Assembly (NCBI GenBank): GCA_025920705.1
Contig: JAPDLJ010000001.1
Location: 168,449 to 232,448 of the forward strand
Direction: 5' to 3'
Length of the DNA: 64,000 nt
Source: Candidatus Jingweiarchaeum tengchongense
GTDB taxonomy: Archaea; Nanobdellota; Nanobdellia; Jingweiarchaeales; Jingweiarchaeaceae
A program made the position numbers and the translations under genes. Shown piece after piece: positions 10,512 through 37,438 of this stretch (the first letter of the stretch is position 1; every line of letters starts with the position of its first letter). The notes beneath the pieces are model-generated. The model had not been told where the DNA came from. It made no database searches and worked only from the letters and a program-made list of their open reading frames with translations.

Positions 10512-11596
10512 ATTTATTTGAAAAGATAAAAAGAGAACTTGAGGGAAAAGAAATCGTTGTGTTTTACCATATAGATACAGATGGAATTTGTAGTGCGAAA
10601 ATACTGAACGTGGCAATTAAATCACTGGGTGGAAGTGTAAAGAAATTTTTACCTTGTTCTCCCGAGAAATTATCAAAAAGATTGAAGATGGAAAAATCTA
10701 ATATTTTGTTTGTTGTTGATTTACCTTTCGACAAACTTGAAAATGAATCGAAAACAACGAGTAAAAAAATCGTTATTTTTGATCACCATCCGAGAAGCAA
10801 TGTCATTGATAATGATAATATTATATTGGTTGAGCCTAGTGATATTGATTTAGATGAATATTGTCCTGCTTCAAGATTGGTTTATGAATTTTTTTCAAAA
10901 TTCATAAATATGGAAATAGTTGACTGGATTGCATGTACAGGAACAATCGGAGATGGTGGTGCAAAATATTGGAGAGACTTTATCGAAAAAACATTGAAGA
11001 AATATAATTATACAACTGGGAAAGATGAGAACTTCAATGACACATTTTTTGGTAACATTGATAAAATCATTGGATCGGGTAGAATATACAGAGGAGAAAC
11101 TGGTGCAAGTGAGATACTGGATGTATTATTAAAAAGTGAAACGATTGGTGAATTTTTATCAAAATCAAAGAAGTTTATTGAATGGAAGGAAAGAATTGAA
11201 AAAAACTTAAAGGAAATGATTTTAAAATTTGATGTAAGAAAAGAGGAGTATAAGGAAATTGAACTCTGTTTCTTTGAGATTGAAAACCCAAAATATAATA
11301 TTGGTTCTGCACTTGCAAGTATGCTCAGTTATAAATTTCCAAATTTAACAATCGTATTAATTGTTGAGAAAAGGAACTTTGCAACGGTGAATTTGAGAAG
11401 GTACGATGGGAAGATTGACTTAAATGTATTGGTAAGGGAAGCGATAAGAAACATCCCAAAAGCAAGTGGTGGAGGTCATAAGCAGGCGAGTGGTGCAACG
11501 ATGTTAAAAGGTGATGTGAAAAAATTCAAACAGAGAATAATTGAATTATTGAAAAATTTTTATTTAGAAGAGAGCGCCAATAAGCAAAATCAATGA
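10505..11596 (+). CDS. DHH-family phosphoesterase (archaeal RecJ/GAN-like)
   Basis: Predicted single-strand exonuclease or nucleotide phosphodiesterase of the DHH superfamily. Metal-binding motifs are HIDTDGICSA (D24, D26), VVDLPFD, FDHHP (D93-H95) and GTIGDGG; the C-terminal DHHA1 motif is GGGHKQASGATM. Its 363 residues fit the short archaeal RecJ-like proteins, which include the GINS-associated nuclease and Cdc45-like proteins. Start ATG overlaps the end of rtcA. The 3' end overlaps the convergent MgtC/DUF4010 gene by 33 nt. Replication (RecJ/GAN) and RNA-end roles both remain open. Confidence 0.85.
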   Translation: MLDLFEKIKRELEGKEIVVFYHIDTDGICSAKILNVAIKSLGGSVKKFLPCSPEKLSKRLKMEKSNILFVVDLPFDKLENESKTTSKKIVIFDHHPRSNVIDNDNIILVEPSDIDLDEYCPASRLVYEFFSKFINMEIVDWIACTGTIGDGGAKYWRDFIEKTLKKYNYTTGKDENFNDTFFGNIDKIIGSGRIYRGETGASEILDVLLKSETIGEFLSKSKKFIEWKERIEKNLKEMILKFDVRKEEYKEIELCFFEIENPKYNIGSALASMLSYKFPNLTIVLIVEKRNFATVNLRRYDGKIDLNVLVREAIRNIPKASGGGHKQASGATMLKGDVKKFKQRIIELLKNFYLEESANKQNQ

Positions 11597-12799
11597 AATG
11601 ATAAGCGATGCGATTGTTACACTCTTTCTTAGATTTTTATTTTCAGAATATCTCACCCAAAAAAATTTGTTTAACGTGGCTGATGAGCAGGCAATTAAGA
11701 TCAACTTGCCAGCCGTTTCTATATCAATTATACCTTTTGCTGCTATTAACGCAGTACTTGCAACGACAGGACTAGAAGCGATGAATCCAGCGATAAATGA
11801 GATTAAATATAAAATATTTAATGATAAATTTTCACTTACGAATCCCATTATCAATGTCACAAAGAGGAAAAGAAGTGCAAATTTTAATGCAAACATAATT
11901 GAAAATGGTGAATGAATATTCACCTTTAACTTTGTTTTTGTTTTGATTGCTTTATAACAAAGCAATATCGCAATGATGATTGCGATTGAAGCTGGTAGAA
12001 CAAAATTTCTTAGAATAAATAAAGAGCCATAGACAATCGGTGCGATGATGATTCTATTCAAGATCATTGAAGCATTTGCCAGTATAATTCCGACAAATGC
12101 CTCATTCTCAATTCTAACATCTTTACTTTTTTCAGCGATTTTTTGTACCGTGGCTTCACTATTTATGAATCCGCCAAATATACCTGTAAGTATCAATTTG
12201 TTTTCTCCGTAACTCTTAAGTATGATGTATGTAACAAATTCTAGGAAGCTTATTAAGACAACGACAAGCCAAAACTGTTTTGGATTTATAAAACTTATTG
12301 TTGTGTCTGGAAGAAAAGGAAATATCACAAAAGCAACAATTGCAAATTTAATTGCATTTAAGATTTCTTCTCTTGTTAAGCCACGTACAAAACCATGTAG
12401 CTCTTCTTTAATTGCTAGAAAAGCAGTCATAATAATTGCGCTCGTCACTGCGATTCCATATTCACCGATTCCAGCTAAGAAACCGACAATAAAAACAATT
12501 GGCATTGCCACATATGTTGTTGCACCAGTGAATTTATAAACAATCGCTCTTGTTATAAACGCAACCGTTGAAATCACTAACACTGTGGCGATACCAATTG
12601 CCAATGCACTTGTTATACCAATGGTATCAGATATAATTGCAAATAGAAAACCTAAAAGTGCGAGTAATATTGAAGTTCTTATCCCAAATATCACAATTTT
12701 CTTTTCAACTTCTTTTTTATATTCTCTTTCGATCCCGATCAAACATCCAAGCGCTAATGTCAAAACAAGTTTCTCAGCGATGTTTGCAAGTGCTACCAT
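11564..12799 (-). CDS. MgtC/SapB-DUF4010 family membrane protein
   Basis: Polytopic membrane protein of 411 residues with about a dozen hydrophobic segments. The first part matches the MgtC/SapB domain (LALGCLIGIEREYKK, FGIRTS, RAIVYKFTGATTYVA); the second half is the DUF4010 module (GIFGGFINSEATVQKIAEKS, SSPVVASTALIAAKG). Function in these fusions is unknown; ion or membrane homeostasis is usually assumed from MgtC. It sits between convergent recJ-like and divergent Dph2/RNase HII genes and is probably monocistronic. Confidence 0.85.
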   Translation of the reverse strand: MVALANIAEKLVLTLALGCLIGIEREYKKEVEKKIVIFGIRTSILLALLGFLFAIISDTIGITSALAIGIATVLVISTVAFITRAIVYKFTGATTYVAMPIVFIVGFLAGIGEYGIAVTSAIIMTAFLAIKEELHGFVRGLTREEILNAIKFAIVAFVIFPFLPDTTISFINPKQFWLVVVLISFLEFVTYIILKSYGENKLILTGIFGGFINSEATVQKIAEKSKDVRIENEAFVGIILANASMILNRIIIAPIVYGSLFILRNFVLPASIAIIIAILLCYKAIKTKTKLKVNIHSPFSIMFALKFALLFLFVTLIMGFVSENLSLNILYLISFIAGFIASSPVVASTALIAAKGIIDIETAGKLILIACSSATLNKFFWVRYSENKNLRKSVTIASLIISLILLIGALF

Positions 12800-12871: not shown

Positions 12872-13173
12872 TTGATGGAATACGATATTGAATTAAAAAA
12901 AATTAAAAATGAAATTAAAAAAGCGAAAAGGATTTTGATACAGCTTCCAGAAGGAATTAGGAATAATGCATGTAAAATTGCTTGTGAAATTGAAAAAGAG
13001 AGAAAAATCGTATTTATATGGGCTGGTAGTTGCTTTGGCGCATGTGACATACCAAATATACCTAAGAAGTTTGGAATTGACTTATTAATACATTTTGGAC
13101 ATAGTAAATTAAGGGGTGGGAGTTTGGTTCTGAAAAAGAAAGAAACGATTTGCGGCATTGATGAGGCTGGTAG
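12872..13173 (+). CDS. Exon 1: Dph2 N-terminal fragment continuous with the RNase HII N-terminus
   Basis: The frame opens at 12872 (MMEYDIELKKIK). Residues 20-85 match the first domain of diphthamide synthase Dph2: RILIQLPEGIRNNACKIA, then GSCFGACD with the first iron-sulfur cysteine, and LLIHFGHSKL. Domains 2 and 3 are absent. Without a stop it runs into KKKETICGIDEAGR, the start of RNase HII with its first two catalytic acids. A TTG at 13124 preceded by GGGGTGGG could start RNase HII alone. Read straight on, the frame would stop at 13192; removing the 28-nt element at 13174 joins it to the RNase HII body. Whether the Dph2 part is functional is doubtful. Confidence 0.7.
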
Positions 13174-13201
13174 AAAGTTAAACAATGTTTAACTTACCAA
13201 A
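13174..13201 (+). other. Candidate 28-nt BHB intron in the RNase HII mRNA
   Basis: This insert breaks RNase HII between GIDEAGR and GPLIG. Folding gives a canonical bulge-helix-bulge: exon TGGT (13168-13171) pairs with intron ACCA (13196-13199); 5' bulge AG^A at 13172-13174; inner stem of AAGTTAAAC with GTTTAACTT around an AAT loop; 3' bulge AA^A at 13200-13202. An imperfect outer helix pairs exon GAGG with CCTC. Cutting after the second nucleotide of each bulge joins GGT-AG to A-GGC, giving in-frame GIDEAGRGPLIG. The tRNA introns in this window share this build. Not proven without RNA data. Confidence 0.72.
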
Positions 13202-13832
13202 AGGCCCTCTGATCGGAAGTCTGTACATTTGTGGAATTTTAGTAGAAAAAGATCGAATTAAAGAGTTAAAAAATATTGGTGTAAAGGATTCAAAAGAACT
13301 AAAAAAGAATGAAAGAGAAGAATTGGAATCAAAAATTAAGAAAATTGCAAAGGATTTTAAGATAGTCAAAATTACGCCAAAAGAAATAGACGAAAGGGCT
13401 TCTGTTGGTATGAACTTAAATCATTTAGAAGCAATAAAAATGGCTGAAATTATAAATACGTTGAAACCGGACGTGGCAATCATTGATTGTCCATCACATA
13501 ACACAAATGCGTTCAAGAAATTTTTGGAAAAATATCTTGAGCATAAATGTAAACTAAAAGTCGAAAATTATGCAGATGAAAGTTATGTTACTGTTGGAGC
13601 TGCTTCAATTCTAGCAAAAGTGGAAAGAGACCGGGAGATTGAAAAAATCAGTAAAGAGTTAGGGATAGAATTGTACAATGGTTATCCGAATGATGAAAAA
13701 GCATTAGAATTGGTAAAAAATCTTGAGAAAATTCCTGGTGCTAGGAAATACATAAGAAGCAGTTGGTACACATACAAAAGAATAGAAGAAGAAAAAAATT
13801 TAAGGAAACAAAAGAAGATTCTGGATTTCTAA
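13202..13832 (+). CDS. rnhB: Exon 2: ribonuclease HII, catalytic body
   Basis: Cleaves the RNA strand of RNA-DNA hybrids and misincorporated ribonucleotides. From GPLIGSL onward the chain is a complete RNase HII: GVKDSKELKKNERE, VAIIDCPSHN with a catalytic aspartate, and YADESYVTVGAASILAKVERDREI. A conventional reading would start at ATG 13185 within the insert, but that version lacks GIDEAGR and so lacks the first aspartate and glutamate of the active site. Joined to exon 1 by removing 13174-13201 it has a full family motif set. The alternatives are a pseudogene or a frameshift, but the exon-exact BHB argues against those. Confidence 0.9.
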
Positions 13833-37297: not shown

Positions 37298-37387
37298 AGC
37301 GGGGCGTGGATTTGAACCACGGACCTTTGGGTTATGAGCCCAACGACCACTCCAGGCTGGTCTACCCTTATAGACTTGAAGTTCGCT
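37298..37387 (-). tRNA. Initiator tRNA-Met(CAT) with an acceptor-stem intron (4/5)
   Basis: Exons on the minus strand: 37387-37384 (AGCG) and 37367-37298. Joined: acceptor AGCGGGG/CCCCGCT, U8 A9, D arm GACC/GGTC, anticodon stem TTGGG/CCCAA with loop CTCATAA, T arm CGTGG/CCACG with TTCAAAT, discriminator A (37297). The A1-U72 pair and the three G-C pairs next to the anticodon loop are hallmarks of archaeal initiators. A GGCGGGG copy lies in the leader (37400-37394). Confidence 0.88.
37368..37383 (-). other. BHB intron (16 nt) inside the acceptor stem of tRNA-iMet
   Basis: The minus-strand intron is AACTTCAAGTCTATAA. Outer helix: leader TACC with GGTA (nt 6-9). Central helix: GTAG (leader GT plus A1 G2) with intron CTAT, one G-U pair. 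5' bulge CG^A; inner stem ACTT-C-AAGT; 3' bulge AA^G. Splicing restores a perfect 7-bp acceptor stem starting with A1, as initiators require. Confidence 0.78.
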
Positions 37388-37438
37388 ACGGTACCCCGCC
37401 ATATATAAATTACTTGGGCAATATTTAAATTTTGTTGG

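Follow-up and report, generated by a model that had tools for sequence, protein, structure and literature searches.

A putative bulge-helix-bulge intron in the ribonuclease HII gene of Candidatus Jingweiarchaeum tengchongense and of other archaea

The stretch of DNA analysed here (the window; 64,000 nucleotides, G000:C1:168449-232448, positions counted from its first letter) is part of contig JAPDLJ010000001.1 of Candidatus Jingweiarchaeum tengchongense, whose assembly consists of 40 contigs and is 92.5% complete. It contains rnhB, the gene for ribonuclease (RNase) HII, a repair enzyme which clears RNA from DNA. A protein search of the genome gave a single rnhB match, which is broken after GIDEAGR, and found no intact second copy in this 92.5% complete assembly. 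The break is a 28-nt insert at 13174-13201, situated in an Arg codon between GIDEAGR and GPLIG of the RNase HII motif; it shifts the frame, as was pointed out in an earlier note on this DNA, made from the letters alone. In the unspliced reading exon 1 meets an in-frame TAA at 13190-13192. Removal of the insert at the canonical points of a bulge-helix-bulge (BHB) motif yields GGT AG^A GGC CCT (Gly-Arg-Gly-Pro, GIDEAGRGPLIG), and the frame is then open to the end of exon 2 at 13832. The features of the locus, all on the plus strand, are as follows, with the basis of each assignment.

13124..13173, plus: rnhB exon 1, encoding ...KKKETICGIDEAG and the first two bases (AG) of the Arg codon; the translation start is uncertain, with TTG at 13124 as one candidate
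13174..13201, plus: putative intron of 28 nt within the Arg codon (AG^A), with the in-frame TAA at 13190-13192 (sequence, fold, comparison)
13168..13171, plus: BHB central helix, exon strand TGGT (alignment, covariation)
13172..13174, plus: 5' bulge AG^A, predicted cut after 13173 (fold, alignment)
13175..13183, plus: inner helix of 9 bp, 5' strand AAGTTAAAC (alignment, covariation)
13184..13186, plus: hairpin loop AAT (sequence)
13187..13195, plus: inner helix, 3' strand GTTTAACTT (alignment, covariation)
13196..13199, plus: BHB central helix, intron strand ACCA (alignment, covariation)
13200..13202, plus: 3' bulge AA^A, predicted cut after 13201 (alignment)
13202..13832, plus: rnhB exon 2, from GPLIG to the stop codon (PF01351; alignment to solved chains)

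Exon 2 matches PF01351 with an E value of 2.7e-36 and can be aligned with solved chains of archaeal RNase HII, beginning at chain residue 11; exon 1 must therefore supply the preceding residues, including Asp and Glu of GIDEAGR, which we take to be catalytic residues of the enzyme. Upstream, the exon-1 frame has no stop as far as 12872 and passes through a fragment of dph2 (see below). The canonical BHB described in the earlier note, with TGGT/ACCA, AG^A, AA^A, a 9-bp inner stem and an AAT loop, is present in the sequence in every part, and excision at the canonical bulge positions is indeed in frame and open through exon 2. An energy fold of the element drew one inner pair fewer (8 instead of 9) and a 3' bulge of 4 nt.

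BHB geometry was rejected as a stand-alone proof, being too frequent by chance in this AT-rich window. Four Watson-Crick central pairs together with at least 7 inner pairs occurred 8 times on both strands of the 64 kb, two of these matches being registers of the rnhB element, against a mean of 2.7 in 20 Markov-1 shuffles; when at least 9 inner pairs were demanded, the rnhB element was the one match, against a mean of 0.25 in 60 shuffles. When the six other strict matches were compared with open reading frames of at least 150 aa, one (51578-51537, minus strand) overlapped the start of an unbroken frame on the same strand and the rest were intergenic or antisense. Since geometry alone is weak in such a window, position and relatives have to decide. 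What lies far above chance is that the element sits precisely where a conserved gene is interrupted, and that it recurs with covariation in relatives.

In the earlier note an alignment of rnhB from relatives had been proposed, in search of an insert at the same site with covarying arms. Such inserts were found: 46 distinct ones in total, of which two are displaced by 1 nt; they come from the window's own class (Nanoarchaeota/Woesearchaeota) and, by record title, from other phyla. A protein search covered 56 genomes of the class, including the window's own, and detected rnhB in 52; among 29 loci read besides that of the window, three (L006, L022, L028) had an insert at the site and the other 26 were contiguous across it. 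GTDB r220 genomes were also scanned with a pattern in which conserved exon ends were required but not the arms; this produced 47 loci, namely 27 rnhB genes with an insert at the site and 20 chance matches elsewhere. According to record titles, which were unchecked by marker genes, the 27 comprise 17 Woesearchaeota, one Nanoarchaeota, three Thermoplasmatales/Thermoplasmata and one each of Nanohalarchaeota, Aenigmatarchaeota, Bathyarchaeota, Thermoproteota, "archaeon" and "bacterium"; the insert of the "bacterium" record (L077) is identical to that of a genome of the class (G187, L092). A covariance model (R1) was built on 29 sequences and run over 378 genomes of the class. It matched 307 of them, with a span of 69-91 nt where an intron was present and of about 50 nt where it was absent. 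Among the matches listed, at least 32 were long, i.e., intron-bearing (loci L082-L110 and L112-L114, 29 and 3 loci), distributed patchily over 18 families; this figure is a lower bound. A second draw of 371 genomes, at least 97 of them new, added six by span alone, giving 38 of at least 475 genomes and 20 families.

Excision leaves the frame open through GRG for more than 100 aa in 44 of the 46 inserts; one exception (L041) is cut by the locus end, the other (L042) is a truncated gene. The latter, also recorded as L098, is an rnhB copy of genome G261 which carries a BHB intron and ends after about 75-92 aa; there is a second R1 match in the same genome, and the truncated copy is possibly a decaying duplicate.

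The inserts are 19-43 nt long, with all residues modulo 3 represented. The central helix has all four pairs in 39 of the 46 and three in the remaining seven. Its exon strand reads NGGN in nearly all cases, i.e., the third base of an Ala or Ser codon followed by a Gly codon, and the intron strand tracks the two free exon bases (TGGT/ACCA, AGGC/GCCT, CGGG/CCCG, AGGA/TCCT, CGGA/TCCG). In 29 aligned sequences 94.8% of cells were paired, compared with 63.8% after shuffling, and the covariation score was 0.853, compared with 0.221; neither value was reached in any of 500 shuffles. When the partner strand was slid, pairing fell to 52.1% or less. Exon-intron pairs of the central helix numbered 111 of 116, against 90.1 with introns swapped among genomes, and 111 was reached in none of 20000 rounds. 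The inner stem has 6.55 contiguous pairs, against 0.74 in shuffled sequences. Two inserts, L112 (G293) and L114 (G124), form the BHB one base earlier (A^GG), with three of four central pairs, and still restore Gly-Arg-Gly; their treatment as out-of-frame inserts was dropped, since a junction moved by 1 nt fits both the canonical rule and the frame. Intron sliding or independent gain could account for the earlier junction. With regard to the outer helix, a window-like GAG was noted more often in intron-bearing genes (25 of 39) than in intron-free ones (6 of 18), a comparison with uncontrolled sampling and relatedness from which no conclusion is drawn.

An in-frame stop is present in 38 of 39 distinct introns, the exception being L109, whereas shuffled introns gave a mean of 22.9 and a maximum of 32 in 2000 rounds; in the other two frames stops occur in 23 and 17 of the 39. 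For the first 29 introns, one count gave stops in all 29, and a stricter one in 27, against 15.7 in shuffled sequences. The excess points to translation into the unspliced intron being either selected against or put to use. Relatives with stop codons at this site but without BHB arms had been named in the earlier note as evidence against an intron; the opposite was seen, i.e., stops as well as arms.

Several points weigh against an intron or reduce the force of the comparisons. By a coarser measure, the number of pairs changed on both sides, the value of 8 was reached by 79 of 500 shuffles. Inner stems vary: that of L041 has three contiguous pairs and that of L077 a mismatch at its base. The outer helix has no strict conserved continuation; the next exon pair is usually C-G and the next but one usually G opposite G, so that outer pairing differs among genomes. 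Furthermore, of the 29 sequences used to test covariation, 27 came from the pattern which demanded exon ends (arms were not demanded), the shuffle in the stop test does not preserve the hairpin, which makes the strength of the stop excess uncertain, and most sequences are from metagenome-assembled genomes.

Metagenomic origin also bears on the possibility of an assembly error or a decaying rnhB pseudogene, for which the single rnhB match of the window genome and the truncated gene of one relative (L042/G261) could be quoted as well. Exon 2 retains its strong PF01351 match, though, and the same exon-2 protein (P0001) occurs on 7 contigs of the protein collection, some of them possibly reassemblies of the same reads; this recurrence makes an assembly error unlikely, and site, geometry and covariation recur in 46 inserts. 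Error or decay thus appears very improbable. Much the same can be said of programmed translational bypassing, in which the ribosome would halt after GIDEAGR, hop over the hairpin and resume at GPLIG on unspliced RNA. Such an event would be compatible with the short hairpin of the insert, its place behind a conserved sense codon and its in-frame stop, but in bypassing of the phage T4 gene 60 type the stop codon follows the take-off codon directly, and only one of 29 introns (L078) has a stop immediately behind the final codon of exon 1. Nor would bypassing call for a constant helix of 4 bp that joins exon and intron between two bulges of 3 nt, or for its covariation; the insert lengths (19-43 nt) include every residue modulo 3. 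Bypassing would seem to deserve slightly more credence than an error or a pseudogene, and still very little. A BHB could also serve as a regulatory or processing cut after which the mRNA is not rejoined, as has been reported for the BHB in a 5' untranslated region (UTR) of Haloferax. The element lies, however, inside a codon of the active-site motif, its removal restores the frame nearly throughout, and no intact second rnhB copy was found in the genome; a cut of this kind is hardly to be expected.

BHB-forming inserts with compensatory changes at the same spot in dozens of archaea are thus very likely mRNA introns, and the 28-nt insert of the window is with high probability a protein-coding BHB pre-mRNA intron, its splicing being deduced from sequence. 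The proposal of the earlier note is supported by frame, geometry, covariation of both helices in 29 sequences, the 46 inserts, intron-free relatives and the presence of genes for the required enzymes.

The window genome contains one gene with both tRNA-intron-endonuclease domains, PF01974 and PF02778, of 172-180 aa, and a gene for RtcB. For PF01974 this gene, with N and C domains, was the only one found in the 92.5% complete genome; there may be a diverged second subunit, or one encoded in the missing part of the assembly. Of the 39 tRNA matches, seven have a length of 97-131 nt, which would be expected of intron-bearing tRNAs. The endonuclease presumably has about the length of an alpha4-type subunit, and its length and domains suggest an enzyme of this type. 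According to the available text of PMC6379350, only (alpha-beta)2 and epsilon2 enzymes process relaxed motifs well; an endonuclease encoded by one gene and a canonical motif are consistent with each other. The tRNA-splicing endonuclease would cut the rnhB message at both bulges, an RNA ligase, probably RtcB, would join the exons, and the spliced mRNA would encode an unbroken RNase HII. As nearly all introns bear stops, translation of the unspliced message would end just after GIDEAGR without producing an enzyme, and splicing may then gate RNase HII production; regulation of RNase HII by a stop-bearing intron is put forward as a proposal.

As to other genes of this genome, the TruB_N domain of its single TruB-family gene matches whole, without an internal stop. 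At 37298-37400 (minus strand) of the window a tRNA-Met(CAT)-like gene was found by Rfam and missed by ARAGORN; its 5' acceptor strand GGCGGGG seems to lie about 30 nt away from the remainder, which would probably mean an intron at a non-canonical position.

Intron-free sites also occur in the protein collection. In the best 120 of 1114 protein matches to exon 2 of the window, 105 had a contiguous motif, and of the remaining 15, seven start with intron-type residues (LPKGP, SPLGP, MPRGP etc.), three have a contiguous variant motif and five start elsewhere. In the best 120 of 5381 matches to exon 2 of another intron-bearing locus, L049, 105 were likewise contiguous and the other 15 all had intron-type starts. 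The DNA behind such starts was examined in two cases, the window and L049. Two proteins with 100 and 96% identity to exon 2 of L049 (P0121 and P0122) begin inside the intron, while a third with 94% identity (P0123) is contiguous (VDEAGRGP); the closest relative of the window's gene (P0002, 73%) is contiguous too. These cases imply that the intron was gained or lost precisely, in places recently. On an exon-2 tree of 72 rows, from which the short copy L098 was dropped and in which intron rows were over-sampled, the intron label needs at least 9 changes, three of them forced by well supported branches; shuffled labels needed 22.0, and none of 500 shuffles was as low as the observed number. The window gene stands beside an intron-free family (f8; support 81), and the Thermoplasmatales and Bathyarchaeota sequences cluster (support 95) apart from those with a Woesearchaeota title. 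The pattern could stem from a single ancient gain followed by many losses, from horizontal spread or from repeated gains at one site. Since intron-bearing and intron-free genes are available at up to 94% protein identity, gain and loss should be testable.

Public "ribonuclease HII" calls from Thermoplasmatales/Thermoplasmatota without the catalytic Asp-Glu were also encountered; P0121 starts inside the intron, and P0208 and others look as though they did too. With gene calls starting inside an intron, "ribonuclease HII" entries from such genomes can have a wrong N-terminus.

A wider view would see in rnhB a splicing switch that is ancient and under selection, and an archaeal hot spot for the turnover of introns, where active-site codons supply half of the BHB, stop-bearing introns enter and leave precisely and recently, and RNase HII is made only after the tRNA-splicing enzymes have processed the message. 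This is a speculative extension which is rather less likely to be right than wrong.

Upstream of rnhB, 12872-13100 (plus strand) codes for the initial portion of the diphthamide synthase Dph2 (PF01866 positions 1-58), and its frame continues without a stop into exon 1, so that the spliced message could encode a fusion of the N part of Dph2 with RNase HII. The remainder (PF01866 63-293) is located on another contig (G000:C12:102594-103286, L032). Seventeen genomes of the class were inspected, chosen by the authors, mostly for an N part already seen beside rnhB; 14 had separate N and C parts, and in 11 of these the N part lay no more than about 100 nt upstream of rnhB. The N part ends at profile positions 57-64, and the C part starts near 60-66 in most. 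Of the other three genomes, one (G050) has one whole dph2 gene, one (G002) the N part only and one (G031) the C part only. The text available of PMC3655853 lists DPH2 as split in the nanoarchaeon Nst1. Trans-splicing of dph2 was considered and not supported: the best trans-BHB had 5 inner pairs, and the energy of the intermolecular duplex was reached by 20 of 200 shuffles. Farther upstream lies a gene for an MgtC/DUF4010 membrane protein (11564-12799, minus strand).

Pre-mRNA introns of archaea are known from cbf5, reportedly since the work of Watanabe in 2002. They occur in Desulfurococcales and Sulfolobales (Crenarchaeota), have 16-44 bp, interrupt a catalytic codon and have undergone secondary losses (Yokobori 2009, PMC2738675, as far as available). 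The same portions of that paper propose negative regulation by the introns, tie them to relaxed BHB motifs and a hetero-tetrameric crenarchaeal endonuclease, and cite an archaeal virus paper and a 2006 book chapter on Sulfolobus genomes for putative introns predicted in other protein-coding genes. In 2020 the crenarchaeal cbf5 intron was given as the only additional archaeal BHB intron of this kind, besides the authors' own 5'-UTR site (PMC7714728, accessible sections), and the accessible sections of PMC12397907 and PMC6125680 add no gene beyond cbf5. The remark of the earlier note that no intron was known in rnhB agrees with a search of the literature on archaeal introns and RNase HII, in which no report of one was recognised (open-licence papers; subscription ones could be missed). 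The rnhB genes are apparently a second family with such introns, next to cbf5. If this is true, the presence of rnhB introns in at least 18 families of one class of DPANN archaea and, by record title, in several other phyla would turn pre-mRNA splicing into a more widespread feature of archaea, and would cast doubt on the connection that has been drawn, for cbf5, between introns in mRNA and the relaxed endonuclease of Crenarchaeota.

Archaeal BHB substrates consist of two 3-nt bulges separated by 4 bp (PMC6379350, available text). The rnhB introns share this predicted substrate, and presumably the enzymes, with BHB introns of archaeal tRNA and rRNA, but their host is a protein-coding message, and at 19-43 nt they are too short for a homing endonuclease frame. 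The mRNA of HVO_1309 of Haloferax volcanii, too, carries a BHB, in its 5' UTR, which the splicing endonuclease recognises and cleaves, as is predicted for rnhB; being in an untranslated region, that element rebuilds no reading frame (PMC7714728, in the sections available). The putative introns of archaeal viruses (Peng et al., as quoted in the accessible part of PMC2738675) are also small inserts in protein genes; they have 12 bp, were reported without proof of splicing and may be translated, whereas nearly all rnhB inserts contain stops. The closest counterpart is cbf5. Both genes harbour short BHB introns (16-44 bp in cbf5, predicted ones of 19-43 nt in rnhB) at a functionally central site, the codon of the catalytic residue in cbf5 and the GIDEAGR/GRG motif in rnhB, and in both the introns occur at a single site across lineages in a patchy manner, which has been interpreted as loss in the case of cbf5 (PMC2738675, available portions). 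They differ in the host gene and in the lineages, which are for rnhB the DPANN class of the window and, by record title, several additional phyla; in the motif and perhaps in the enzyme, as the relaxed motifs and hetero-tetrameric endonuclease to which cbf5 introns have been tied contrast with four central pairs in 39 of 46 rnhB inserts and the single endonuclease gene found in the window genome; and in the evidence, since splicing was shown for cbf5 and is predicted by comparative analysis for rnhB. The rnhB element would accordingly appear to be an archaeal BHB pre-mRNA intron in a new host gene and in new lineages.
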